From a virus, in the IMG/VR virus record IMGVR_UViG_3300034073_002089, positions 1-35,088 of that record: a stretch of DNA of 35,088 nucleotides; one strand, given 5' to 3'. How positions within the stretch are numbered: the first letter of the stretch is position 1; every line of letters starts with the position of its first letter. A program made the translations under genes and the position numbers. Under the pieces are notes generated by a model that ran no database searches, was not told the origin of the DNA, and saw only the letters and a list, made by a program, of their open reading frames with translations. Below, in pieces: positions 18,261 through 35,088 of this stretch.

Positions 18261-18902
18261 ATGGCAGAGGGCGTTTACAAAATCACGGAATCGTTTGAAG
18301 AAAAGGTTGCCGAATACACCGGCGCACCATACTGTGTGGCGGTAGATAACTGCTGCAACGCTTTGTTTTTAGCGCTGACCTATGAACGTGTGGCGGGAAC
18401 GACGATCAGGTTGCCAGCTAGAACTTACCCAGGCGTGCCTTGCGAAGTGATTCATGCCGGTGCGAAGGTCGACTTTTATCCGGTTGAAGGCAGGGCGATT
18501 AAGGGCGCGTATCAATTAGCACCCACGCGTGTGTGGGATGCTGCGCTTTCGTTTACCTCCAACATGTACATCAAAGGCTCGCACATGTGCGTGTCGTTTA
18601 CCGGGCCTTATAAGCACTTAAAGCTAGGCAAGGGCGGTGCGATTCTTACCGATGACTATGCCGCCATGCTGTGGTTCAAGCGTGCGCGTTTCAGCGGGCG
18701 GCGCGAGTGTTCTTATCACGACGATTATTTCGACATGATCGGCTGGAACTTTTACATGATGCCGGATGTGGCAGCTCGTGGTTTATTGCTCATGAATCAA
18801 TTTTGGGATCGTGATGGCTCGCCAAAAGTGATGGAGGACATTGAGATGAGCTACCCGGATTTGTCAAAGTTTCCAATTTACGCGTTTGGGGGTGACAAAT
18901 GA
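18261..18902 (+). CDS. DegT/DnrJ-type sugar aminotransferase, short form
   Basis: A 213-residue PLP-enzyme-like protein. It resembles the large domain of DegT/DnrJ/EryC1 nucleotide-sugar aminotransferases: SFEEKVAEYTGAPYCVAVDN (11-30) with CCNALFLAL; LPARTYPGVPCEVIHAGAKV; Asp93 (VWDAALSF) for the PLP ring; Lys118 in SFTGPYKHLKLGKGGAILTD for the internal aldimine; and IGWNFYMMPDVAARGLLLMN. Full-length relatives are about 370-400 residues, so the C-terminal small domain is missing. There is no sign of a frameshift, and the next ORF begins with ATGA overlap. A keto-sugar transamination role is inferred, with the acyltransferase two genes downstream as the natural next step. RBS AAGGGGAT. Confidence 0.8.
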   Translation: MAEGVYKITESFEEKVAEYTGAPYCVAVDNCCNALFLALTYERVAGTTIRLPARTYPGVPCEVIHAGAKVDFYPVEGRAIKGAYQLAPTRVWDAALSFTSNMYIKGSHMCVSFTGPYKHLKLGKGGAILTDDYAAMLWFKRARFSGRRECSYHDDYFDMIGWNFYMMPDVAARGLLLMNQFWDRDGSPKVMEDIEMSYPDLSKFPIYAFGGDK

Positions 18903-19438
18903 GCCGTGAAGCTATGAAGCAGGCGCTGGAGGCTTTGGAAGGATTGCAAACTTGGTCAAATGGCTGGCTAAAGTTTACCGATGAAATCCAAGCACTACGC
19001 CAAGCACTTGTCGATGCCGACGACACATCGCAAAAACGTGTCGATGAAATGGTGAAAACTGAACACGACCGTGCCGTCGAGTTAGGGCAAGCGTATGAGC
19101 GTGGCTGGAATGCAGCATTAGCGCAGCGTGAACCGGTGGCGTGGATGCACACAACCGGAACAGGGCATGTGTATTTCCGCAAAAAGCCACAGGATAAAGT
19201 GTTCAACCCACAGCCTGTGTTCACATCGCCACCAAAGCGTGAATGGGTTGGGCTGACGGATGAGGAGATACAAGATTTAGGTTATCTGTCCGAAAAGTTT
19301 GATGCAAGTAATTCAGAGTGGTTTGATCGATGGGGATTTGCCAGAGCCATTGAAGCCAAGCTAAAGGAGAAGAACGGCGGTGAATATCGTAACGGGGCTA
19401 CGACTGAAAGAACCAGGCTAAAGGAGAAGAATCAATGA
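18899..19438 (+). CDS. Phage protein of unknown function with duplicated C-terminal tail
   Basis: A 179-residue protein. Residues 1-60 are helical (REAMKQALEALEGLQ, then TDEIQALRQALVDADD). Residues 75-110 carry REPVAWMHTTGTGHVYFRKK and NPQPVFTSPPKREWVGLTDE, a mosaic seen in many hypothetical phage proteins. The end repeats a short motif (KLKEKN and RLKEKN, 19 residues apart). The underlying 15-base repeat provides the ribosome site of the next gene. It sits between the aminotransferase and acyltransferase with overlaps on both sides. No enzymatic role can be given. Confidence 0.6.
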   Translation: MSREAMKQALEALEGLQTWSNGWLKFTDEIQALRQALVDADDTSQKRVDEMVKTEHDRAVELGQAYERGWNAALAQREPVAWMHTTGTGHVYFRKKPQDKVFNPQPVFTSPPKREWVGLTDEEIQDLGYLSEKFDASNSEWFDRWGFARAIEAKLKEKNGGEYRNGATTERTRLKEKNQ

Positions 19439-20091
19439 GTGGCGATCACAACATGTATCAAAAGGCAAAACGCAAAAACCAGTACATCATCTTTGGTTCA
19501 GGAGGGCTTGCCAAGGAGTTGATTGGCTACATCGAGGAAGAAGGAACGCACGAGATTGTGTGTGTTGTTTCAACGCAACCGTTTAACAATAAGCGTTATG
19601 CCGCCAAGTATCCCGTGGTGGAAAGCATCAGAGAGGGCGCGTTTCCTGGCGCTGAATTCTTGCTTGCTGTGGCGGACCCTGATGCAAAGCAAGCCATTGT
19701 TGTTAAAAACGAAGAAAGATGGGGGACGTACATACACAGCACAGCCACGGTATCGCCTTACGCGAAGATTGGCGAGGGTTGCGTTTTAGCGCCGCAAGTG
19801 ATCGTTACGGCGGATGCCTGGATCAACGATTTTGTGTTTATGAATACCAATGCAACGGTTGGGCATGACTCGGTGATTCATGGATGGACAACGATGTTTC
19901 CCAATACGGAAGTGTGCGGCGATTGCGTGATTGGCGTGGCGGTGATCATGGGCATTGGGTCTTATGTATTACCGGGTAAGCAAATAGCTAACCGCGTGAA
20001 GATTTCAGCGGGGTCGATTGTCCGCCATGACTTCAAAGGGCCGGTGCATGAAGGCATTGTGCTGCAAGGAAATCCGGCGGCGCCAAGATGA
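19435..20091 (+). CDS. NeuD/PglD-type left-handed beta-helix sugar acyltransferase
   Basis: A 218-residue protein in two domains. Residues 14-95 are Rossmann-like (QYIIFGSGGLAKELIGYIEE, LLAVADPDAKQ) and would bind the UDP-sugar. Residues 98-218 are hexapeptide repeats of the left-handed beta-helix (STATVSPYAKIGEGCVLAPQ, FVFMNTNATVGHDSVIHGW, GVAVIMGIGSYVLPGKQIAN). The His in VGHD is the expected general base. This is the NeuD/PglD design, which acetylates an amino sugar (or sialic acid) from acetyl-CoA. The DegT-type aminotransferase two genes upstream gives a matched pair, as in PglE-PglD. AAAGGAG is 9 bases upstream of the ATG. Confidence 0.88.
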   Translation: MSGDHNMYQKAKRKNQYIIFGSGGLAKELIGYIEEEGTHEIVCVVSTQPFNNKRYAAKYPVVESIREGAFPGAEFLLAVADPDAKQAIVVKNEERWGTYIHSTATVSPYAKIGEGCVLAPQVIVTADAWINDFVFMNTNATVGHDSVIHGWTTMFPNTEVCGDCVIGVAVIMGIGSYVLPGKQIANRVKISAGSIVRHDFKGPVHEGIVLQGNPAAPR

Positions 20092-22142
20092 ACGCAGAAC
20101 TATTAGCCGCAGCGCTTGGTAACGCCAAGCGTTACAAGAGGGGGTGGCTTGCGTCTTGCCCGGTGCCCGGGCATGGCAATGGCAAAGGTGATCGGCATCC
20201 ATCGCTTGCAATTACGCAACTCGGTGAGAAGTTTCTCTTTAAGTGCTTTGGCGGGTGCGATCAGGAGGATGTGTTTGCCGCCATCAAGCCGCACTTGCCT
20301 AATTCGCTGAACTGGAACCGTCCCTTAGTTGCGCGTGATCCTTTATCGGGTATCAGACCGATTGTGCCGCCAACGATGAAAGAGGTGATGGCGTGGGACT
20401 ACATCGATGAGAACGGTGAAGTTACAGCGCAAAAAGTAAGGTATGACGTTGAAGGTGGTGGTAAGACGTACCGCCAGTACCACCTTATCAATGGCGAGCG
20501 CGTACCAACGATCCGTAATTGGACGCCCATACCGTTTGGCTTACCGCTCATGATCGCAAGACCCATGGCGCCAGTATTTGTGACCGAGGGCGAAAAGGCC
20601 GCTGAGTTTTTGGTTGGCATGTTCGATGTGGTCGCCATATCGGCGCACGCGGGGTCGAGCGAATGGCCTGCCGCCATCACGCCATGGTTTCATGGTCGAT
20701 TAGTGGTTGTGCTGCCTGATAACGACAGACCTGGTTGGAAGTACGCCAAGCGCGTTGTGAGGGACTTGCAAGGTGTAGCGCAAGCGATCAAAGTGGTTGA
20801 TTTAGCCGATGACGAGTCAGCGATTGGTGATGACGCTGAGGAGTTTATCGGACGCGGGTTCACGTTTGAGGAGTTCGTTAAACGCGTGGCGGAAGCCAGC
20901 GTGATTGACGATTTCGAGCTAGTTACACCGCCACAGCGATTAGTGATTGATGAGAGCGCAGAAACAGAACCGGAATCCGTTGTGCCAGAAAAAGAACCGT
21001 TTGCCGAAGTCATCGAGGCGCAAGAAGCGCAGCGGTACCGCGTTGAGATGTGGCGTGACGCCAAGGATGAGCCGGTTAAGTGGTTGGTGGATAGGATCGT
21101 GCCGGAGAAGGGATTCATGGCGCTGTACGGCCCGCCTGGCACGTTCAAATCGTTCATCGCGTTGCACTTAGCCGCCATGATTGCCAGTGGGGATTCGTGG
21201 CTAGCGCACGAAGTGCCGAGTGCGGGTGAAGTCTTATACATCGCCGGTGAAGGGCATGGCGGGATTGGCACAAGGATTTCGGGTTTACGCCATGCGTATG
21301 AACTCAAGGATATTCCCGTTGGCGTCATTCGTTCACAAGTCAACTTAAGGTCATCTGATCAGGACTTTGCTGATTTGATTGCCGCCATCAGAGCGTCCGA
21401 AATTCAGCGTCCGAAATTGATCATTATTGACACCTTAGCCCGCGCCTTTGGCGGCGGCAACGAGAACGCGTCCGAGGATATGGGAAGTTTCATCAGTAAC
21501 TGTGGACGCTTGCAGGAAGCCACGGGCGCAGCACTCCTGGTTGTCCACCACTCAGGTAAGGATGCTTCATTAGGGTTGCGCGGTCACTCCAGCTTTCTAG
21601 GTGCAGTGGATACGCAAATTGAGATTACCCGCCATATCGATCAGATGTCAGGCACGCTCAAAGTGACCAAGCAAAAGGATGGCAAGGACGGTGTGGAGAT
21701 TCACTTTTCTATGGAAACGGTGAACTTTGATGAACCAACAACGTCTGCCGCCAAGCTCAACCTGGGGTTCGAGGATGACTTAGCCAACACGCTCGTGGTC
21801 AAACCATTTGAGGGTGAGTTACCCGATGGCGTTGGATATAAGCCGCCACAAAGCGCAAAGCCCAACGCAGGAAGGGGTAAGCATCAGTCGATGGGCAGGG
21901 AAGCGTTACGCCATGTCATTAAGACGGAAGGGCAATACCAGATCGTGCAAGGAGAACGCCATCGCGTGGTGACGCTTGAGCGTTGGCGGGATGAGGTATA
22001 CGCCAGGCTTGGAAGCGATGTTGAGGAAAGCGATAAGAGGAAGCGTTGGAAGGAAGTGAAGGACAAGTTAGTTGAGCTTGAGTTTGCCGCCATAAGAAAC
22101 GATTTGGTGTGGATTAAGCCGATCAATCAAGAAGGATTTTGA
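20088..22142 (+). CDS. Primase-helicase (zinc/TOPRIM/RecA-like AAA_25)
   Basis: A 684-residue replication protein. Zinc-binding primase domain: Cys24, His29, Cys53, Cys57. TOPRIM: Glu167 (TEGEKAAEF) and Asp211/Asp213 (VLPDNDRPG), the metal site for primer synthesis. RecA-like ATPase: Walker A GPPGTFKS with Lys354, and Walker B IIIDTLARAFGGG with Asp448, followed by VVHHSGKDASLGLRGHS as in RepA/AAA_25 helicases. A C-terminal helical region (about 590-684) may bind DNA. With no polymerase gene present, the phage must recruit the host replicase. It ends with TGATG overlap at the repeat-rich region that probably holds the origin. Confidence 0.92.
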   Translation: MNAELLAAALGNAKRYKRGWLASCPVPGHGNGKGDRHPSLAITQLGEKFLFKCFGGCDQEDVFAAIKPHLPNSLNWNRPLVARDPLSGIRPIVPPTMKEVMAWDYIDENGEVTAQKVRYDVEGGGKTYRQYHLINGERVPTIRNWTPIPFGLPLMIARPMAPVFVTEGEKAAEFLVGMFDVVAISAHAGSSEWPAAITPWFHGRLVVVLPDNDRPGWKYAKRVVRDLQGVAQAIKVVDLADDESAIGDDAEEFIGRGFTFEEFVKRVAEASVIDDFELVTPPQRLVIDESAETEPESVVPEKEPFAEVIEAQEAQRYRVEMWRDAKDEPVKWLVDRIVPEKGFMALYGPPGTFKSFIALHLAAMIASGDSWLAHEVPSAGEVLYIAGEGHGGIGTRISGLRHAYELKDIPVGVIRSQVNLRSSDQDFADLIAAIRASEIQRPKLIIIDTLARAFGGGNENASEDMGSFISNCGRLQEATGAALLVVHHSGKDASLGLRGHSSFLGAVDTQIEITRHIDQMSGTLKVTKQKDGKDGVEIHFSMETVNFDEPTTSAAKLNLGFEDDLANTLVVKPFEGELPDGVGYKPPQSAKPNAGRGKHQSMGREALRHVIKTEGQYQIVQGERHRVVTLERWRDEVYARLGSDVEESDKRKRWKEVKDKLVELEFAAIRNDLVWIKPINQEGF
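21392..21418 (+). repeat. Two intragenic copies of AGCGTCCGAAATT
   Basis: AGCGTCCGAAATT occurs at 21392-21404 and 21406-21418 inside the primase-helicase gene, 14 bases apart. It is the same core word as the cluster at 22148-22335 downstream of this gene. It encodes ASEIQRPK in the helicase, so coding constraint alone could explain one copy. Confidence 0.7.
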
Positions 22143-22348
22143 TGTTAAGCGTCCGAATGTCCGAAAGTGATGTTTTAGCGTCCGAATTAGGGTGTCCTAA
22201 AGTTGATGTTTTGTCCTTTAAGCGTCCGAAAACGCGTACGAAGTTGTCCGAAAGCGTTGTAGAACAAGAAGTGAACGCGTCCGAAATGTGTGTGTGTCTG
22301 AAAGACACACATTCGGACGCTTCAATGTTTCGGACGTTTGATGTGTGA
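22142..22348 (+). CDS. Possible small ORF overlapping the repeat cluster
   Basis: An ATG at 22142 overlaps the primase-helicase stop (TGATG) and has GAAGGA 5 bases upstream, the usual coupling in this genome. The 68-residue product (MLSVRMSESDVLASELGCPK...) has no recognisable domain. Its sequence is dominated by translation of the GTCCGAA repeats, which fall in two of the three frames (giving SE, and RP in another). It is either a real small gene or an accidental opening across an origin; the DNA repeat looks like the selected feature. Confidence 0.35.
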   Translation: MLSVRMSESDVLASELGCPKVDVLSFKRPKTRTKLSESVVEQEVNASEMCVCLKDTHSDASMFRTFDV

Positions 22349-22360
22349 TGTGTGATGTAA
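22148..22360 (+). repeat. Iteron-like GTCCGAA cluster, candidate replication origin
   Basis: Exact GTCCGAA at 22151, 22159, 22180, 22224, 22246 and 22279; one- or two-base variants at 22194, 22213, 22236 and 22296; exact inverted copies (TTCGGAC) at 22312 and 22329. The fuller form AGCGTCCGAA is seen at 22148, 22177, 22221 and, inverted, at 22312-22321. Then a 7-base tandem GATGTGT GATGTGT GATGTAA (22340-22360). A dense set of short repeats directly after a primase-helicase gene is the classical setting of an initiator-binding origin. No AT-rich unwinding stretch is obvious. Confidence 0.65.
22277..22320 (+). other. Large bulged hairpin within the iteron cluster
   Basis: GCGTCCGAA (22277-22285) pairs with TTCGGACGC (22312-22320). 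A 5-base bulge (22286-22290) follows, then TGTGTGTCT (22291-22299) pairs with AGACACACA (22303-22311) around a GAA loop. Eighteen base pairs in all. There is no following T-run, so it is not an ordinary terminator. It combines a direct and an inverted repeat copy of the iteron motif, and could be a single-strand initiation site or primase signal. Confidence 0.75.
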
Positions 22361-22378: not shown

Positions 22379-23038
22379 ATGGCGGCAAAAGATAAGCGCG
22401 GGAAGGTGAGAGATGGTTTGTATGGCGGATCAGAGGATCGGTTAAGGAATCCGTTTGAAGAGGATGATCCGATTGTGTTGGCGATGAATAGTGTGGCGGT
22501 CAGTGTGATGAAGCGAAAGCGTGAGGCGGATAAGGTTTGGGGATTAGATCGTTTGGCGGAACTCGTGAGCGAGGAAACGCGTTTACGGTTTTGGCGGCAA
22601 CTGTTGCGTTGTAGGGAAGCGAGGAAATCGAGAGACGTTGAGGCGTATCGGTCAGCTTGTGGCGGCATGCTTAGAGCGTATGACGTGTTGGAGGCTGAAG
22701 CGAAGGCGGTGAACGCTGAACCGTTACAGGTGAATGTGATGGAGGGTCAGCGGGATGATGGGAGCGTATTTGCGATTTGCGCTGATCCAGCAACTGTCCA
22801 CGCCTACGCGCAGATGCGTCCTGAGTGTGATTGCTGGACAATGGACGAGGTGGCGTTGATCTTGCAGCAGGAGTTTTTTACGCAGGCGGTGAACATCAAA
22901 CGGGTGATGCCAGGTGCTGAAGTGTTGACGCTGATGGAGGAGCAGGATATTGGTCCGGTGTACAAGGGAAACAGTGAGCAGGCTTACGCGTTGAGCAAGG
23001 ACGCGTTAGAGGCGATGGAACAAGCGAAAGGTAGGTGA
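22379..23038 (+). CDS. Phage protein of unknown function upstream of small terminase
   Basis: A 219-residue, mostly helical, charged protein (RBS GAAAGGA, 11 bases upstream). Features: a basic N-terminus (MAAKDKRGKVRDGLYGG), RLRFWRQLLRCREARKSRDV at about 68-90, and NVMEGQRDDGSVFAICADPA at about 119-140. The C-terminal part ends GNSEQAYALSKDALEAMEQA. It lies just before the terminase small subunit, a place where packaging or replication accessory proteins occur, but no family is recognised. Confidence 0.6.
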   Translation: MAAKDKRGKVRDGLYGGSEDRLRNPFEEDDPIVLAMNSVAVSVMKRKREADKVWGLDRLAELVSEETRLRFWRQLLRCREARKSRDVEAYRSACGGMLRAYDVLEAEAKAVNAEPLQVNVMEGQRDDGSVFAICADPATVHAYAQMRPECDCWTMDEVALILQQEFFTQAVNIKRVMPGAEVLTLMEEQDIGPVYKGNSEQAYALSKDALEAMEQAKGR

Positions 23039-23041
23039 GTA

Positions 23042-23623
23042 ATGATGAAAGCAGAAAATCGAACTGAGGGCGATCTGACGCGTTTGAGCGGTATTGATGA
23101 TGCGCAAGGTGATGAAGGCGCGGTGCGCGAAGCGCGTGGCGCGGGATTGAGCAACGCGAAGCGTAGAGAACTTAGGTCGATTGTGAATCGTGCGGTGCAT
23201 AAGTTTCCAGGCGGCGAAGAGGGACTGTTTGAGCAGATCGGGAGCGGCGTAAAAGTGTCCGAGTTAATAGGCGCACTTGGCGTTAGCGAGGGCGCGTTTT
23301 ATTCGTGGACGGAAACGACTCCCGAGCGCAGCGAAGAATTTACGCGTGCACGCGCGAGGGCGGCACACGTTTTGGCGGAGCAAGGGTTGGCGATTGTTGA
23401 TGGCGCTGACGCGATTACAGCGAACCTGGCGAACGTCAGGGCGCGTTACCGTCAATGGCTCGCTGGCAAGTGGAATCAGCAAGCCTATGGCGAGAACAAG
23501 ACGCAAGTAAACGTCCAGGTGAACATTACCGATGCGCACCTGATGGCGAATCGATACCGCGAAACAGTCAACGCCGTAAACGTCGATGACAACACCATTG
23601 ATGTTGCGCCGCACAACGAGTAA
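23042..23623 (+). CDS. terS: Terminase small subunit
   Basis: A 193-residue DNA-recognition subunit of the packaging motor. The helix-turn-helix LIGALGVSEGAFYSWTETTP at about 77-96 is followed by SEEFTRARARAAHVLAEQGL (helical oligomerisation part) and NVRARYRQWLAGKWNQQAYG at about 133-155, which equals the RxDxRKWLAxKxxPKxYG hallmark of phage small terminases. A VNVQVNITDA strand and an acidic tail follow. The N-terminal 45 residues are charged and variable. It lies upstream of a repeat-bearing intergenic block that may be its binding site, and is separated from the large subunit by a recombinase gene. Confidence 0.8.
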   Translation: MMKAENRTEGDLTRLSGIDDAQGDEGAVREARGAGLSNAKRRELRSIVNRAVHKFPGGEEGLFEQIGSGVKVSELIGALGVSEGAFYSWTETTPERSEEFTRARARAAHVLAEQGLAIVDGADAITANLANVRARYRQWLAGKWNQQAYGENKTQVNVQVNITDAHLMANRYRETVNAVNVDDNTIDVAPHNE

Positions 23624-23922: not shown

Positions 23923-24006
23923 ATGAAGTCCAGCACAACAACATTGATCATTGGCGGTGCCGCATTCGGCGCGTTGTATGCACTGATGATTTGGGTGGCG
24001 TTATGA
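23923..24006 (+). CDS. 27-residue membrane peptide coupled to serine recombinase
   Basis: ATG at 23923 with AGGAAA 5 bases upstream; the peptide is MKSSTTTLIIGGAAFGALYA followed by LMIWVAL, almost entirely one membrane helix with a Lys at the N-terminus. Its TGA overlaps the recombinase ATG (ATGA at 24003-24006), so its translation probably sets recombinase expression. It could be a functional micro-protein or a leader peptide. No family can be given at this length. Confidence 0.5.
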   Translation: MKSSTTTLIIGGAAFGALYALMIWVAL

Positions 24007-24659
24007 ATTACGGTTATTTGCGCGTAAGCACTGACGAGCAGGTCAATGGCACAAGCCTTGATACGCAACGCAGGGAAGTGACCGGCAACGCGTTAACGCA
24101 TGGATTGACGGTTGATCGGTTTATTGAGGATGCCGGAGTTTCAGGGCATTTGAATTTTCTTGATCGATTGGCGGCAAACGGTGTAACGCCACAACCTGGT
24201 GATGTGATCATTGTGGCAAAACTGGATCGGTTTAGCCGCAACTCGATGGATACGCTGAATACCGTTCATGCGTTTAAGGAGCGCGGTATTCGTTTGATCA
24301 TCAACGGGCATGGCGATGTGACCGATGAGAAGAATATTTATGGGCAGTTGATGCTTGAGATTATGGCGGCATTTGCTACGCACGAGCGGCGCGTGATTAA
24401 GGACCGTCAGCGCGTAGGCCAGGCGGCGAAGCGTCAGGCAGGCGGGCATGTTGGTGGATTGCCGCCTTTTGGGTATCGCGTTGTGGGTGCTGGCAAGGCA
24501 GCAACCCTTGAGCCTGTTGCCGAGCAGCAAGCCGCCATTGCTACGATCAAAGCGTTGAAGGGGTCCATGTCATTGCGCCAGATTGCCGGTGAAGTGATGA
24601 AATTGCATGGTGTGACGATTACGCACGCTGGCGTTGCAAAGGTGCTTGGCCGTGAATGA
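24003..24659 (+). CDS. Small serine recombinase (resolvase/invertase family)
   Basis: A 218-residue site-specific recombinase. Resolvase domain: YLRVSTDEQ with nucleophile Ser9, then SLDTQRRE, AKLDRFSRN (Arg76, Arg79), and GQLMLEIMAAFATHERRVIK (helix E region). A short second part (GGLPPFGYRVVGAGKAATLE, then SLRQIAGEVMKLHGVTITHA) resembles the start of the large-serine-recombinase domain followed by a small helix-turn-helix, far shorter than phage integrases (450+ residues). It might resolve genome multimers or invert a segment; no obvious crossover repeat was seen beside a fibre gene. Its position between terS and terL is unusual. It overlaps terL by 8 bases. Confidence 0.88.
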   Translation: MNYGYLRVSTDEQVNGTSLDTQRREVTGNALTHGLTVDRFIEDAGVSGHLNFLDRLAANGVTPQPGDVIIVAKLDRFSRNSMDTLNTVHAFKERGIRLIINGHGDVTDEKNIYGQLMLEIMAAFATHERRVIKDRQRVGQAAKRQAGGHVGGLPPFGYRVVGAGKAATLEPVAEQQAAIATIKALKGSMSLRQIAGEVMKLHGVTITHAGVAKVLGRE

Positions 24660-29597: not shown

Positions 29598-31742
29598 ATG
29601 GACGTTGAAATGAATCTTGCCACCGGCGTTAAGTCCGGTGAACCTATGGACGAAACAGAGATTCAGGCTATTGTTGCGGCTGAACTTGTTGATGCCACCA
29701 ATTTCATTGACTTAGAGATTGGCAACCTTCGCGCCCGCGCCACGGAATACTATTTTGGCGATCCATTTGGCGATGAAGAAGAGGGACGCAGCCAGGTTGT
29801 TTCGATGGACGTGCGCGATACTGTGCAGGCCATTTTGCCAAGCCTGATGCGCATTTTCTTCTCATCAGAGAACGTTGTTCAGTATGTACCGCGCAGCATG
29901 GAAGATGCGCCGATGGCAGAGCAGGCCACCGATTATGTGCGTTACATATTGAACGAAGACAACAATGGCTTTGTGCTGTTTCACTCCATATTCAAAGACG
30001 CTTTGGTGCGCAAGACGGGCGTTTGCAAGTGGTGGGTTGACGAGCACATTGAAGTCAAAAACGAAAATTACACCGGTCTTGATGACACGCAACTATCACT
30101 GATCCTTGGTCAGGAAGGCGTTGAGATGGTGGATTTAATGTCCACCGAAGACCCGTCAGCGCCGCCACCGGTGATTGATCCGCTAACCGGCCAGCAACTA
30201 ACGCCAACGATCATGATTCATGACGTGACGGTTAGCCGCAAGATCATCACCAAACGTTTCCGCGTCGAAAGCCTGGCGCCTGAAGAGTTCATTGTTGATC
30301 GCAGAGCGCGAACGCTTGAAGACGCAGACATTGTGGCGCACAGAAAGCTTGCCACCGTGTCTGAGTTGGTCGCCATGGGTTATGACCAAGAATTGGTTGA
30401 GTCCAACACGGGCGAAGACGAACTCGACACGAACATTGAGCGCATTGCGCGTAATCCTGCGCAAATGATGTTTGGTGAGTCCGCCAACAATCCGGCGCAA
30501 CGCCGCGTGCTTTACACCGAGTCCTATATCCGCATGGATATGGACGGTGATGGTGTGGCGGAACTGCGCAAAATTTGCACCATGGGACCGTCTTACAAGA
30601 TCGTTGCCAACGATCCGGCAGATGATGTTCCCTTTGCTTATTTCTGTCCTGATCCTGAACCGCACACACTTTTTGGCATGTCCACGGCAGATGTAACCAT
30701 GGACATTCAACGCATCAAGTCAGTCATTCTGCGCAATATGCTTGACTCATTGGCGCAATCCATTCATCCGCGCACAGGCGTGGTTGAAGGCCAGGTCAAT
30801 CTTGATGATGTACTGAATAACGAAAACGGCGCCATCATCAGAATGCGTGCGCCTGGCATGGTGCAGCCGTTCACCACACCATTCGTTGGCGGGCAAGCCT
30901 TTCCGATGATGGAGTACATGGATCAGGTGAAAGAGGCCCGCACCGGCATGTCCAAAGCCTCAATGGGACTTAACGCTGATGCGCTGCAATCCACCACTAA
31001 GTTGGCGGTACAGGCCACGGTCCAGGCCGCGCAGCAACACATTGAGTTAATTGCTCGCGTGTTTAGCGAAATCGGTATGAAGCGGTTATTCAAAGGATTG
31101 CTGCGCCTGATTACGCGCCACCAGGACAAGCCACGCGTCATCCGTTTGCGTAACCAGTGGGTGCAAATTGACCCGCGTGGTTGGGATGCCTCGATGGACG
31201 TTAGCGTCAACGTTGGCTTAGGCACTGGCGGTATTGACGAGAAGATTCAATTCTTGCAGGCCATTGCCGGTAAGCAAGAGCAGTTGCTTCAAACGCTTGG
31301 CACCAACAATCCCATTGTGACGGTTGGTCAGTACGCCAACACGTTATCAAAGCTTGTGGAAATGGCCGGTTACAAGGACTCGACGCAATTCTTCAATCAA
31401 TTGCCGATGGGCTTTTCACCGCCACCGGCGCAGCCACAACCTGATCCAACGCAGGCTTTGGCGCAAGTTCAGATTCAATCGATTCAGGCTGACATTCAAA
31501 AGAAAGCCGCCGAACTTGCCCTTGAGCGCGAGAAGATGATTCGCGCAGATGATCGTGAGCGTGATCGCATTGCGCAAGATGGCATCCTGAAACGTCAGGA
31601 AATGGAGTTAAAGTATCAAGTTGACTTAGCGGCAACGCAGGCAGAGATTGATGCCAGAGTTGCGATGGACCGTGAACGATTGCAGATGCAGGCGATTAAC
31701 CAGGCACAACAAGCCGTTACAGCGGCACAACCCATGCAATGA
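29598..31742 (+). CDS. Portal protein (P22/SU10-like)
   Basis: A 714-residue portal, which forms the dodecameric DNA gateway and terminase docking ring. ATEYYFGDPFGDEEEGRSQV, VSMDVRDTVQAILPSLMRIF and VVQYVPR near residues 45-98 are typical of large podovirus portals of the P22/SU10 type. DLTGQQLTP-like PLTGQQLTPTIMIHDVTVSR, SLAPEEFIVDRRARTLEDAD and LFGMSTADVTMDIQRIKSVI follow. The C-terminal 120 residues form a long Gln/Glu/Arg helix (barrel-like). Length agrees with P22 gp1 (725). ATG follows the previous stop directly; AAGGGT is upstream. ATGA overlap with the next gene. Confidence 0.9.
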   Translation: MDVEMNLATGVKSGEPMDETEIQAIVAAELVDATNFIDLEIGNLRARATEYYFGDPFGDEEEGRSQVVSMDVRDTVQAILPSLMRIFFSSENVVQYVPRSMEDAPMAEQATDYVRYILNEDNNGFVLFHSIFKDALVRKTGVCKWWVDEHIEVKNENYTGLDDTQLSLILGQEGVEMVDLMSTEDPSAPPPVIDPLTGQQLTPTIMIHDVTVSRKIITKRFRVESLAPEEFIVDRRARTLEDADIVAHRKLATVSELVAMGYDQELVESNTGEDELDTNIERIARNPAQMMFGESANNPAQRRVLYTESYIRMDMDGDGVAELRKICTMGPSYKIVANDPADDVPFAYFCPDPEPHTLFGMSTADVTMDIQRIKSVILRNMLDSLAQSIHPRTGVVEGQVNLDDVLNNENGAIIRMRAPGMVQPFTTPFVGGQAFPMMEYMDQVKEARTGMSKASMGLNADALQSTTKLAVQATVQAAQQHIELIARVFSEIGMKRLFKGLLRLITRHQDKPRVIRLRNQWVQIDPRGWDASMDVSVNVGLGTGGIDEKIQFLQAIAGKQEQLLQTLGTNNPIVTVGQYANTLSKLVEMAGYKDSTQFFNQLPMGFSPPPAQPQPDPTQALAQVQIQSIQADIQKKAAELALEREKMIRADDRERDRIAQDGILKRQEMELKYQVDLAATQAEIDARVAMDRERLQMQAINQAQQAVTAAQPMQ

Positions 31743-31999
31743 CACCTGACGAAAAAGTAAGACGAGCACAGGAAGCCGAACGAATCATTAACTCCACGCT
31801 TTACCAAGAGGCGTGGCAACGAATTAGAGAATCGTTGTTTGAAGAGTGGACCGCTTCGCAGGATGCCAAGCACCGCGAAATGATCTTTCATGACTTCAAA
31901 GCCATGGATCGCCTTCAAACCTATTTTGGAAGCGTGATAACTGACGGTACGTTGACCCGCATGGCGGCTGATCGCCAACGGAAACTGACCAAATCTTGA
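31739..31999 (+). CDS. Small head-module protein between portal and scaffold
   Basis: An 86-residue helical charged protein (MTPDEKVRRAQEAERIINST, then DGTLTRMAADRQRKL). The EKVRRAQEAERIINSTLYQEA and HDFKAMDRLQTYFGSVITDG patterns are seen in short proteins between portal and scaffold/capsid in other phages; the function is unknown. ATGA overlap with the portal gene. Confidence 0.6.
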   Translation: MTPDEKVRRAQEAERIINSTLYQEAWQRIRESLFEEWTASQDAKHREMIFHDFKAMDRLQTYFGSVITDGTLTRMAADRQRKLTKS

Positions 32000-32012
32000 T
32001 GGAGCGCAATAA

Positions 32013-33029
32013 ATGAGTGACAATGTAGCAACCGTTGAAAGCGATAGCACAGCGGGCATGACGGTGGCGCAAGCCGCCAAAGCCTTTGAGTCGATGTTTG
32101 CCGAACCCGGAGAACAAACAGAAGCCCAGGCGCAAACGGACGAGGTGCAAGCCGAATCCGATGATGTTGGCGATGCAGAGACAGGCGCGGAAGAGCAAGG
32201 CGAAGTGTCCGAAGACGTTGAAGCATCGAGCGAATCAGACGAAGACGCTCAAGAACCAGAGCAATCCAGCGAGCCACCAAAGTTCACCGTCAAGATTGAT
32301 GGCAAGGAACAAGAGGTTGAACTTAATGAGTTGATCAACGGTTACCAGCGAACGGCTGATTACACGCGCAAAACGCAAGCATTGGCTGAACAGCGCAAGG
32401 CCGCTGAAGCCGAGCTGAACGCGGTGCGCGAAGAGCGGCAGACTTACGCTCAATTGCTTACGGCGTTGCAACAGCAACTCCAACAGCAACAGGAAAACCC
32501 GGTCGATATGGAGAGTCTATACAGAGACGATCCGATTGAGTGGGTGCGGCAAACCGAGTTGCAACGTCAGCGCAACGAGAAATTGGCGGCATCGCAAGCC
32601 GAACTCCAGCGTTTGAACCAGTTGCAGCAAGCTGAATCGCAACGAGCCATGAAAGCCAGGCTTGAGCAAGAGGCGCAACTTCTTGTGGAGGCCATTCCAG
32701 AATGGAAAAACGCTGACACGGCAAAGGCTGAAAAGGCCGCGTTGATTGAATTTGGATTGAAGGAAGGTTTTCAGGAAGACGATTTGAAGGGCGTGGCTGA
32801 TCACCGCGTTGTCAAATTACTTCGTAAAGCAATGCTATACGACAAAATCGCGGCAAAACAGGCAACGATTAAGCCTAAACCGCCCGTTGTACAGCAAGCC
32901 AAAACCATTACGCCTGGTAATCCAAAAGCCGCCAAAGTTTCCACGAGTGAGTTAGTCCGCGCCAAACAGCGCCTTGCAAAAACCGGCAACGTTCGTGACG
33001 CTGCCAAATTGTTTGAACATCTCATCTAA
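32013..33029 (+). CDS. Capsid scaffolding protein
   Basis: A 338-residue protein; RBS GGAG. Residues 30-90 are very acidic (Glu/Asp/Ser-rich). PPKFTVKIDGKEQEVELNEL, INGYQRTADYTRKTQALAEQ (about 90-128) is the conserved scaffold segment seen in T7-like and SU10-like phages. A long Gln/Glu/Arg coiled coil follows (130-230), then a short C-terminal domain with basic tail (AKVSTSELVRAKQRLAKTGN). Placement between portal and major capsid, acidic N-terminus and coiled coil all fit scaffold function; it should leave the prohead on maturation. Confidence 0.85.
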   Translation: MSDNVATVESDSTAGMTVAQAAKAFESMFAEPGEQTEAQAQTDEVQAESDDVGDAETGAEEQGEVSEDVEASSESDEDAQEPEQSSEPPKFTVKIDGKEQEVELNELINGYQRTADYTRKTQALAEQRKAAEAELNAVREERQTYAQLLTALQQQLQQQQENPVDMESLYRDDPIEWVRQTELQRQRNEKLAASQAELQRLNQLQQAESQRAMKARLEQEAQLLVEAIPEWKNADTAKAEKAALIEFGLKEGFQEDDLKGVADHRVVKLLRKAMLYDKIAAKQATIKPKPPVVQQAKTITPGNPKAAKVSTSELVRAKQRLAKTGNVRDAAKLFEHLI

Positions 33030-34362: not shown

Positions 34363-35072
34363 TGGAAACCAAACGATTGATTAGTGTATGCGTCCCTGCG
34401 AGGGACGAAGTGCATTCAGACTTTGCATTTGATCTTGTGAACGCTGTGGCGTTTCACGTTGCGCATCATCCGCATGACGTGGTGAATGTGAACATCAGCA
34501 AGGGAACATTGCTTGTAAGCCAGCGTTCAGAATTGGTGATGACCGCCATGGAAAACAACGCTGACGTGGTGCTGTTTATTGATAGCGATATGCGCTTTCC
34601 GCAGGACACCATCAAGCAATTGCTTGACCGTGACTTGTTAGTGGTTGCCGCCAACTGCCCGCGCAGGCGAATGCCAGTGGGGCCAACGGCTGCGAACTAT
34701 GATCCAGAAACGCAGCGCAAGGTTCCTGTATATACAGGTGAGCACGACACGGGCGTTGAGCAAGTTGACGCGGTTGGAACGGGCGTCATGATGATTGACA
34801 CGAACGTGTTTCGCGCTATTGAGATGCCTTGGTTTGCTACGCCATGGGATGTGGCGGCAAAAGGTTACATGGGCGAAGACATTTATTTTTGCAAGTTATT
34901 GCGCGACAATGAGATTCCGTTGTATATTGATCATGACCTGTCCAAGCACATTGGACATATAGGAACCTGGGAATACAAGCATCAGCACACCTGGGCAATC
35001 CGTCCGCAAGAGGATGCTTATCGAGCATCTGTCGGTCTTAAAACCGAACTTCGCAAAAAGGACGCTGCCTAA
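34362..35072 (+). CDS. Glycosyltransferase-like protein (GT-A fold) 4, within the virion operon
   Basis: A 236-residue protein; ATG 34362 overlaps the previous stop (TGATG) and has GGAAGGG 4 bases upstream. ISVCVPARDEVHSDFAFDLV, VNISKGTLLVSQRSELVMTA and VLFIDSDMRFPQDTIKQLLD (DxD-type DSD at about residue 73) define a GT-A fold. VDAVGTGVMMIDTNVFRAIE and GEDIYFCKLLRDNEIPLYID with HIGHIGTWEY complete the acceptor and C-terminal His motifs. Its place between capsid-accessory and adaptor genes makes it a candidate for glycosylating virion proteins. The gene crosses the window junction; its 3' end is repeated at 1-77. Confidence 0.82.
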   Translation: METKRLISVCVPARDEVHSDFAFDLVNAVAFHVAHHPHDVVNVNISKGTLLVSQRSELVMTAMENNADVVLFIDSDMRFPQDTIKQLLDRDLLVVAANCPRRRMPVGPTAANYDPETQRKVPVYTGEHDTGVEQVDAVGTGVMMIDTNVFRAIEMPWFATPWDVAAKGYMGEDIYFCKLLRDNEIPLYIDHDLSKHIGHIGTWEYKHQHTWAIRPQEDAYRASVGLKTELRKKDAA

Positions 35073-35088
35073 TCATGGCGCTTGGCAC
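34996..35088. repeat. Terminal direct repeat, right copy (circularisation overlap)
   Basis: Exact 93-base copy of the window start. Removing one copy gives a unit of 34,995 bp in which the gene beginning at 34362 runs to its stop and the adaptor gene follows after two bases (TAA, TC, ATG). Gene order is continuous across the junction, which supports a complete genome. Confidence 0.95.
35075..35088 (+). CDS. First codons of the adaptor gene (duplicate of 80-93)
   Basis: ATG and the next bases are identical to the start of the adaptor gene at position 80. This is the edge of the circular overlap, not an additional gene. Confidence 0.9.

Follow-up and report, generated by a model that had tools for sequence, protein, structure and literature searches.

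A candidate phage replication origin of iterons and a hairpin beside a RepA-type primase-helicase gene

The Rep protein of SaPI and the Cch2 protein of SCCmec carry a C-terminal domain that recognises short iterons directly downstream of their own helicase gene (PMC7581432). The phage locus described here comes from IMG/VR record IMGVR_UViG_3300034073_002089, the whole of which (35,088 nucleotides, referred to as the window) was analysed. It resembles the SaPI Rep kind in that short direct repeats are clustered far above chance, lie directly downstream of a helicase/initiator gene and are conserved across relatives. By description, however, SaPI Rep belongs to another helicase family and has no fused primase, whereas the phage helicase is RepA/RecA-like and primase-fused; furthermore, the present case occurs in ordinary phages, and its array ends in a hairpin.

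The helicase of the P4 alpha protein is of the SF3 class. Alpha combines a TOPRIM primase, a helicase and winged-helix origin binding in one protein, together with iterons (PMC4234260, and in part general knowledge). The phage protein likewise appears to unite primase, helicase and winged helix, and has iterons, but its helicase is RepA/AAA_25 and not SF3, and in P4 the ori/crr layout does not consist of a single array immediately following the gene.

The oriV of RSF1010 contains iterons and the primase-recognised hairpins ssiA and ssiB (PMC4234260). The phage helicase is of the same hexameric RepA type, and the RSF1010 RepA helicase is the sole relative of the protein with a solved structure (PDB 1g8y, E 7e-6). 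RSF1010 uses three proteins, RepA, RepB' and RepC, of which RepC is a separate iteron binder, whereas here a C-terminal domain of the primase-helicase would bind.

In pRN1, the origin lies in a non-coding stretch directly after the gene for a primase-helicase with a C-terminal winged helix, and includes an essential stem-loop (PMC4234260). The phage has a similar stretch with a stem-loop after its gene, and a predicted winged helix in the protein; pRN1 differs in lacking iterons and in its two enzymes, the primase being of archaeal type and the helicase SF3. For the RepA of PLE, the DNA-binding domain covaries with the iterons, and an origin-cutting nuclease has been proposed as the driver (PMC8263062). 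That protein is a RepA_N satellite initiator and is swapped as modules, whereas here the layout is kept and the repeated word changes in place. Unlike a lambda-type origin, in which the iterons lie inside the initiator gene, the array begins after the primase stop. Layout and logic are shared with known iteron origins beside their own initiator, and the protein family differs.

The array and hairpin after the primase-helicase gene

The window is a complete, circularly mapping phage genome of about 34,995 bp (35 kb), because its ends repeat 93 bp directly (1–93 is identical to 34996–35088) and relatives are cut elsewhere. The primase-helicase gene (20088–22142, plus strand) encodes 684 amino acids, with a RepA/AAA_25 hexameric helicase core and a predicted C-terminal winged helix, and is the proposed initiator. 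Its match to Pfam is AAA_25 (1.5e-41), with no other family listed, and its matches to PHROG are primase/helicase families. Motif reading suggests that the N-terminal half is zinc/TOPRIM-like. Just upstream of the primase (18261–20091) there is a match to DegT/DnrJ-type aminotransferases and a hexapeptide acyltransferase-like protein, a pair that gives the neighbourhood an unexpected look of sugar modification.

The array starts a few bases past the primase-helicase stop. The heptamer GTCCGAA, referred to here as the word, occurs in eight exact copies within 185 bp (22151–22335), six direct and then two inverted. The direct copies (22151–22285, plus strand) start at 22151, 22159, 22180, 22224, 22246 and 22279. 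They are accompanied by near-copies at 22194 (GTCCTAA), 22213 (GTCCTTT), 22236 (GTACGAA) and 22296 (GTCTGAA). The first inverted copy (22312–22318, minus strand) lies in the 3' arm of the hairpin, and the second (22329–22335, minus strand) just past it, where some relatives have GTCCGGA or similar. All six exact, four near and two inverted copies that the initial annotation had counted within about 200 bases were thus located. The comparison with a shuffled model that it had proposed shows a strong excess: the word is present 14 times across the whole window, against 3.44 ± 1.83 in dinucleotide shuffles, and 0/100 shuffles reach 14. It also clusters more than any other 7-mer in the genome, with eight copies in 250 bp, while unrelated 7-mers reach at most four in the same span.

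The hairpin (22277–22320), described beforehand as an 18-pair bulged structure built from a direct and an inverted copy, is indeed present. It consists of 9 + 9 pairs, with basal arms 22277–22285/22312–22320, upper arms 22291–22299/22303–22311, a 5-nt bulge ATGTG (22286–22290) and a GAA loop (22300–22302). Each basal arm holds an iteron, and the near-copy at 22296 lies at the tip. As DNA it folds with −21 kcal/mol (z −4.3), a value matched by 0/200 shuffles.

Two other features pointed out at the start are real, and probably do not belong to the element. A 7-base tandem, GATGTGT twice, is present at 22340–22353 (plus strand) and is not kept in relatives. Two further copies of the word lie inside the primase gene, at 21395 and 21409, and are probably incidental because they are missing at that place in 65%-identical relatives. 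A 68-codon open frame (22142–22348, plus strand) runs across the array. It is broken in relatives, which speaks against an explanation in terms of the encoded peptide, and it is probably not a gene.

The array is only mildly AT-rich (45% GC, compared with 52%) and lacks a pronounced AT-rich unwinding element; the 60 bp richest in AT begin shortly ahead of it. Most of the genome has a positive GC skew, which peaks locally at 22–23.5 kb, and the change of skew at the array that was to be looked for is not seen. The genes seem to share one orientation, and the skew is therefore uninformative on the origin. There is a strong local AT skew (0.31–0.32) at 31501–33000.

Conservation of the layout in close and distant relatives

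Dozens of relatives with primase identities of about 64–98% are present in IMG/VR, and 96 of their loci gave 47 distinct arrays. In all the close relatives checked, represented by these 47, the array and hairpin directly follow the primase-helicase gene, with 7–12 GTCC words ahead of each hairpin. The words are mostly GTCCGAA (243), GTCCTAA (69) and GTCCGGA (43). No frame across the array is kept in all relatives, and it is therefore the DNA rather than a peptide that is conserved. This is the reverse of the outcome named in advance as counting against an origin, namely that the peptide would be kept and the repeats lost.

The hairpin is kept as well, and two of its pairs have changes on both sides. 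The compensating changes are GTCCGGAT/ATCCGGAC in loci L014 and L020, and the stem is rebuilt in L058. Such covariation is sparse (3 cells); besides, words in inverted orientation are enough to generate inverted repeats.

Searches with the helicase domain provided a more distant set of 146 loci with a readable primase end. An array was scored when the 430 bp following the primase stop contained at least four copies of one 8-mer. By this measure 112/146 distant loci (77%) have an array, compared with 47/3862 control windows from the same loci (1.2%). When six members of the window family and near-duplicates are removed, the figures are 74/100 at 90% identity and 61/85 at 80% (72–74%). The word itself is lineage-specific, there being 54–63 different words among the deduplicated arrays, including TGTAGAAA, GTATGAAA, GTCCTAAA, ACAAATGG, GGTCAAAT, GTCGGGTT and CAACTCCC. 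The positions of the copies are nevertheless alike between relatives with different words (L469, L462, L443). An inverted repeat or hairpin with a word in each arm can be formed by 78/100 of the distant arrays, which is partly due to the inverted words themselves.

Among isolates, the layout is found in Rhizobium phages 16-3, X2_25 and N65 and in Roseobacter phage CRP-831, and more weakly in BcepGomr. Many other phages with a RepA-type primase have no array, among them mycobacteriophage Imvubu, the Guernseyvirinae, Vibrio phage 1214 and GB2A. A DNA search of phage records with the array region gave no match. GTDB genome contigs, in which a host or prophage context was sought, matched neither the hairpin core nor the primase profile.

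Reading of the word by the primase C-terminus

An AlphaFold2 (AF2) model of the C-terminal region, built with 54 sequences, has a pLDDT of about 80 in the domain, and the last 114 residues model as a winged helix; a full-length model built from eight sequences was poor (pLDDT 54). In the window protein the modelled domain covers residues 598–676 (21879–22115, plus strand), with a predicted recognition helix at residues 647–663 (22026–22076, plus strand). Its structural neighbours by VIA-align are the winged helices of CAP/CRP, ORC/Cdc6 and MukF, at Z values of 7–9.6, a range common for small folds. Foldseek returned nothing for this domain with E below 0.001, and a profile search of PDB sequences with it gave no significant match.

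In the aligned sequences, the changes of word track this C-terminal domain, most strongly on a single side of its predicted recognition helix. Among the 40 loci of cluster A, the distance between words correlates with C-terminal distance when helicase distance is held constant (partial r 0.31, p 0.0005), and the converse correlation, with helicase distance given C-terminal distance, is −0.10 (p 0.93); the p-values of such partial Mantel tests are optimistic for related sequences. The 40-column stretch of the alignment with the highest r (0.36) spans helix 2–3 and the wing. Four of the top-covarying columns correspond, by alignment A5, to residues 648, 652, 655 and 656 in the protein of the window, which share one face of the helix predicted to recognise DNA. 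Within the window family all four residues are invariant, and so is the word.

A change of word can be followed in two primases that are about 95% identical, those of loci L496 and L491. Helix 3 and the wing differ at 9/27 residues and the rest of the protein at 25/616 (p 2.6e-6), and at most array sites the word switches from GT(A/C)GGAAA to a GGAGGAAA-like form. Differences between the two arrays amount to 26/86 in the words against 21/128 in the spacers. A third locus, L495, has the same word as L496; the two differ at 1/27 residues in helix 3 and wing, and have the helix in common. Taken with the predicted fold, this covariation suggests that the C-terminal winged helix may recognise the repeats.

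Origin function and alternative explanations

The candidate origin proposed in the initial annotation, beside the primase-helicase gene, has gained support from the enrichment of the word, the conservation of the repeats without the peptide, the layout across the lineage and the tracking between word and winged helix. We consider it likely that 22143–22345 is the phage replication origin, read by the primase-helicase encoded immediately upstream. The binding, helicase loading, hairpin priming and origin activity in the following scheme are all inferred steps. The winged helix would bind the GTCCGAA iterons beside its own gene and so gather several protomers there; a RepA-type helicase ring would then be loaded and the DNA unwound. 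The hairpin with its flanking iterons, once single-stranded, would offer the protein's primase portion a site for loading or priming. This role of the hairpin is likely, on analogy with the ssi hairpins of RSF1010. A separate observation is that hairpin tips after the primase often have the sequence CTTTAG, as in CCCTTTAGGG, in lineages whose words differ widely (L365, L423, L477, L496, L509, L512, L515, L359, L361 and L522), and this could be a constant priming signal.

Iterons of plasmids often have control roles. The primase might accordingly bind the array for autoregulation, for handcuffing or for an early-to-late transcription switch, the array not being a start site, and its position between the replication and terminase genes would suit this. 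We regard such a role as unlikely, given that the array lies after the gene and not at its promoter, and that promoter and terminator scans of the array gave no signal.

It is quite improbable that the reader is instead the downstream protein or another factor, such as a late-gene regulator, with the link to the primase being physical linkage only. The gene in question (22379–23038, plus strand; 219 aa, function not assigned) is common to many, though not all, array-bearing phages. In cluster B the word is tracked by the downstream gene (0.26) at least as well as by the primase C-terminus (0.18), and when both predictors are modelled together, significance is kept by the downstream gene alone; the array sits between the two genes, and linkage is probably the explanation, though a second reader may act there. 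In cluster A the loci with the gene number eight, too few for interpreting covariation. Arrays, however, are equally frequent where the gene family is absent (41/56, compared with 71/90 where it is present), including in Rhizobium 16-3, X2_25, N65 and BcepGomr, and the downstream genes pair L491 with L495, against the grouping by word. That the top covarying residues share a face of the primase's predicted recognition helix also points away from the downstream protein.

A packaging (pac) site for the terminase small subunit, TerS, is a very unlikely identity for the array. The TerS gene (23042–23623) is only 0.7 kb downstream, and the genomes of the group are circularly permuted, as expected with headful packaging, but the array is independent of TerS being found in the locus sequence (38/47 with, 74/99 without), and phage 16-3, a cos phage, has its array after the primase and its cos end about 4 kb away. 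We give equally little credence to an mRNA element (a terminator, processing or antitermination hairpin). Strong as the hairpin is on the transcribed strand, there is no U-tract after it, the GC-rich hairpin followed by a T run of an intrinsic terminator is not found, and the array has no match in Rfam; in many relatives, moreover, the words are on both strands and change in concert, as fits DNA binding sites. Resolvases act at clusters of inverted sites, yet it is barely credible that the array serves as a recombination site for the serine recombinase, whose gene (23991–24659) separates those of the small and large terminase subunits, a homologue of the recombinase being present in just 7/112 array-bearing distant loci within the locus sequence examined.

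A literature search of incomplete coverage did not turn up any account of such a layout for the RepA-type primases of phages. Evenly balanced, in our judgement, is the broader proposal of a large, apparently undescribed class of phage replicon, whose RepA-type primase-helicase acts as its own initiator, whose origin directly follows that gene, and whose word and recognition helix have repeatedly been rewritten in concert within an unchanged array layout. Nucleases that target origins, satellites or rival phages may have supplied the pressure. If this is right, the origins of many uncultivated phages could be read from sequence as a cluster of words after a RepA-type primase, and dozens of lineage-specific words paired with recognition helices would form a natural data set on DNA choice by winged helices. 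The question is raised of why origin words change so fast between related phages. The isolates that share the layout (Rhizobium 16-3, X2_25 and N65, and Roseobacter CRP-831) open the system to laboratory work.

The word GTCCGAA was also noted in other phages. In an unrelated one (L209, 11161–11424) GTCCGAA words and a hairpin directly follow the gene of a 996-aa TOPRIM-like primase. In two more (L219, 11970–12150; L240, about 2080–2260) GTCCGAA repeats lie inside genes that directly precede helicase-loader or DnaB-like helicase genes.
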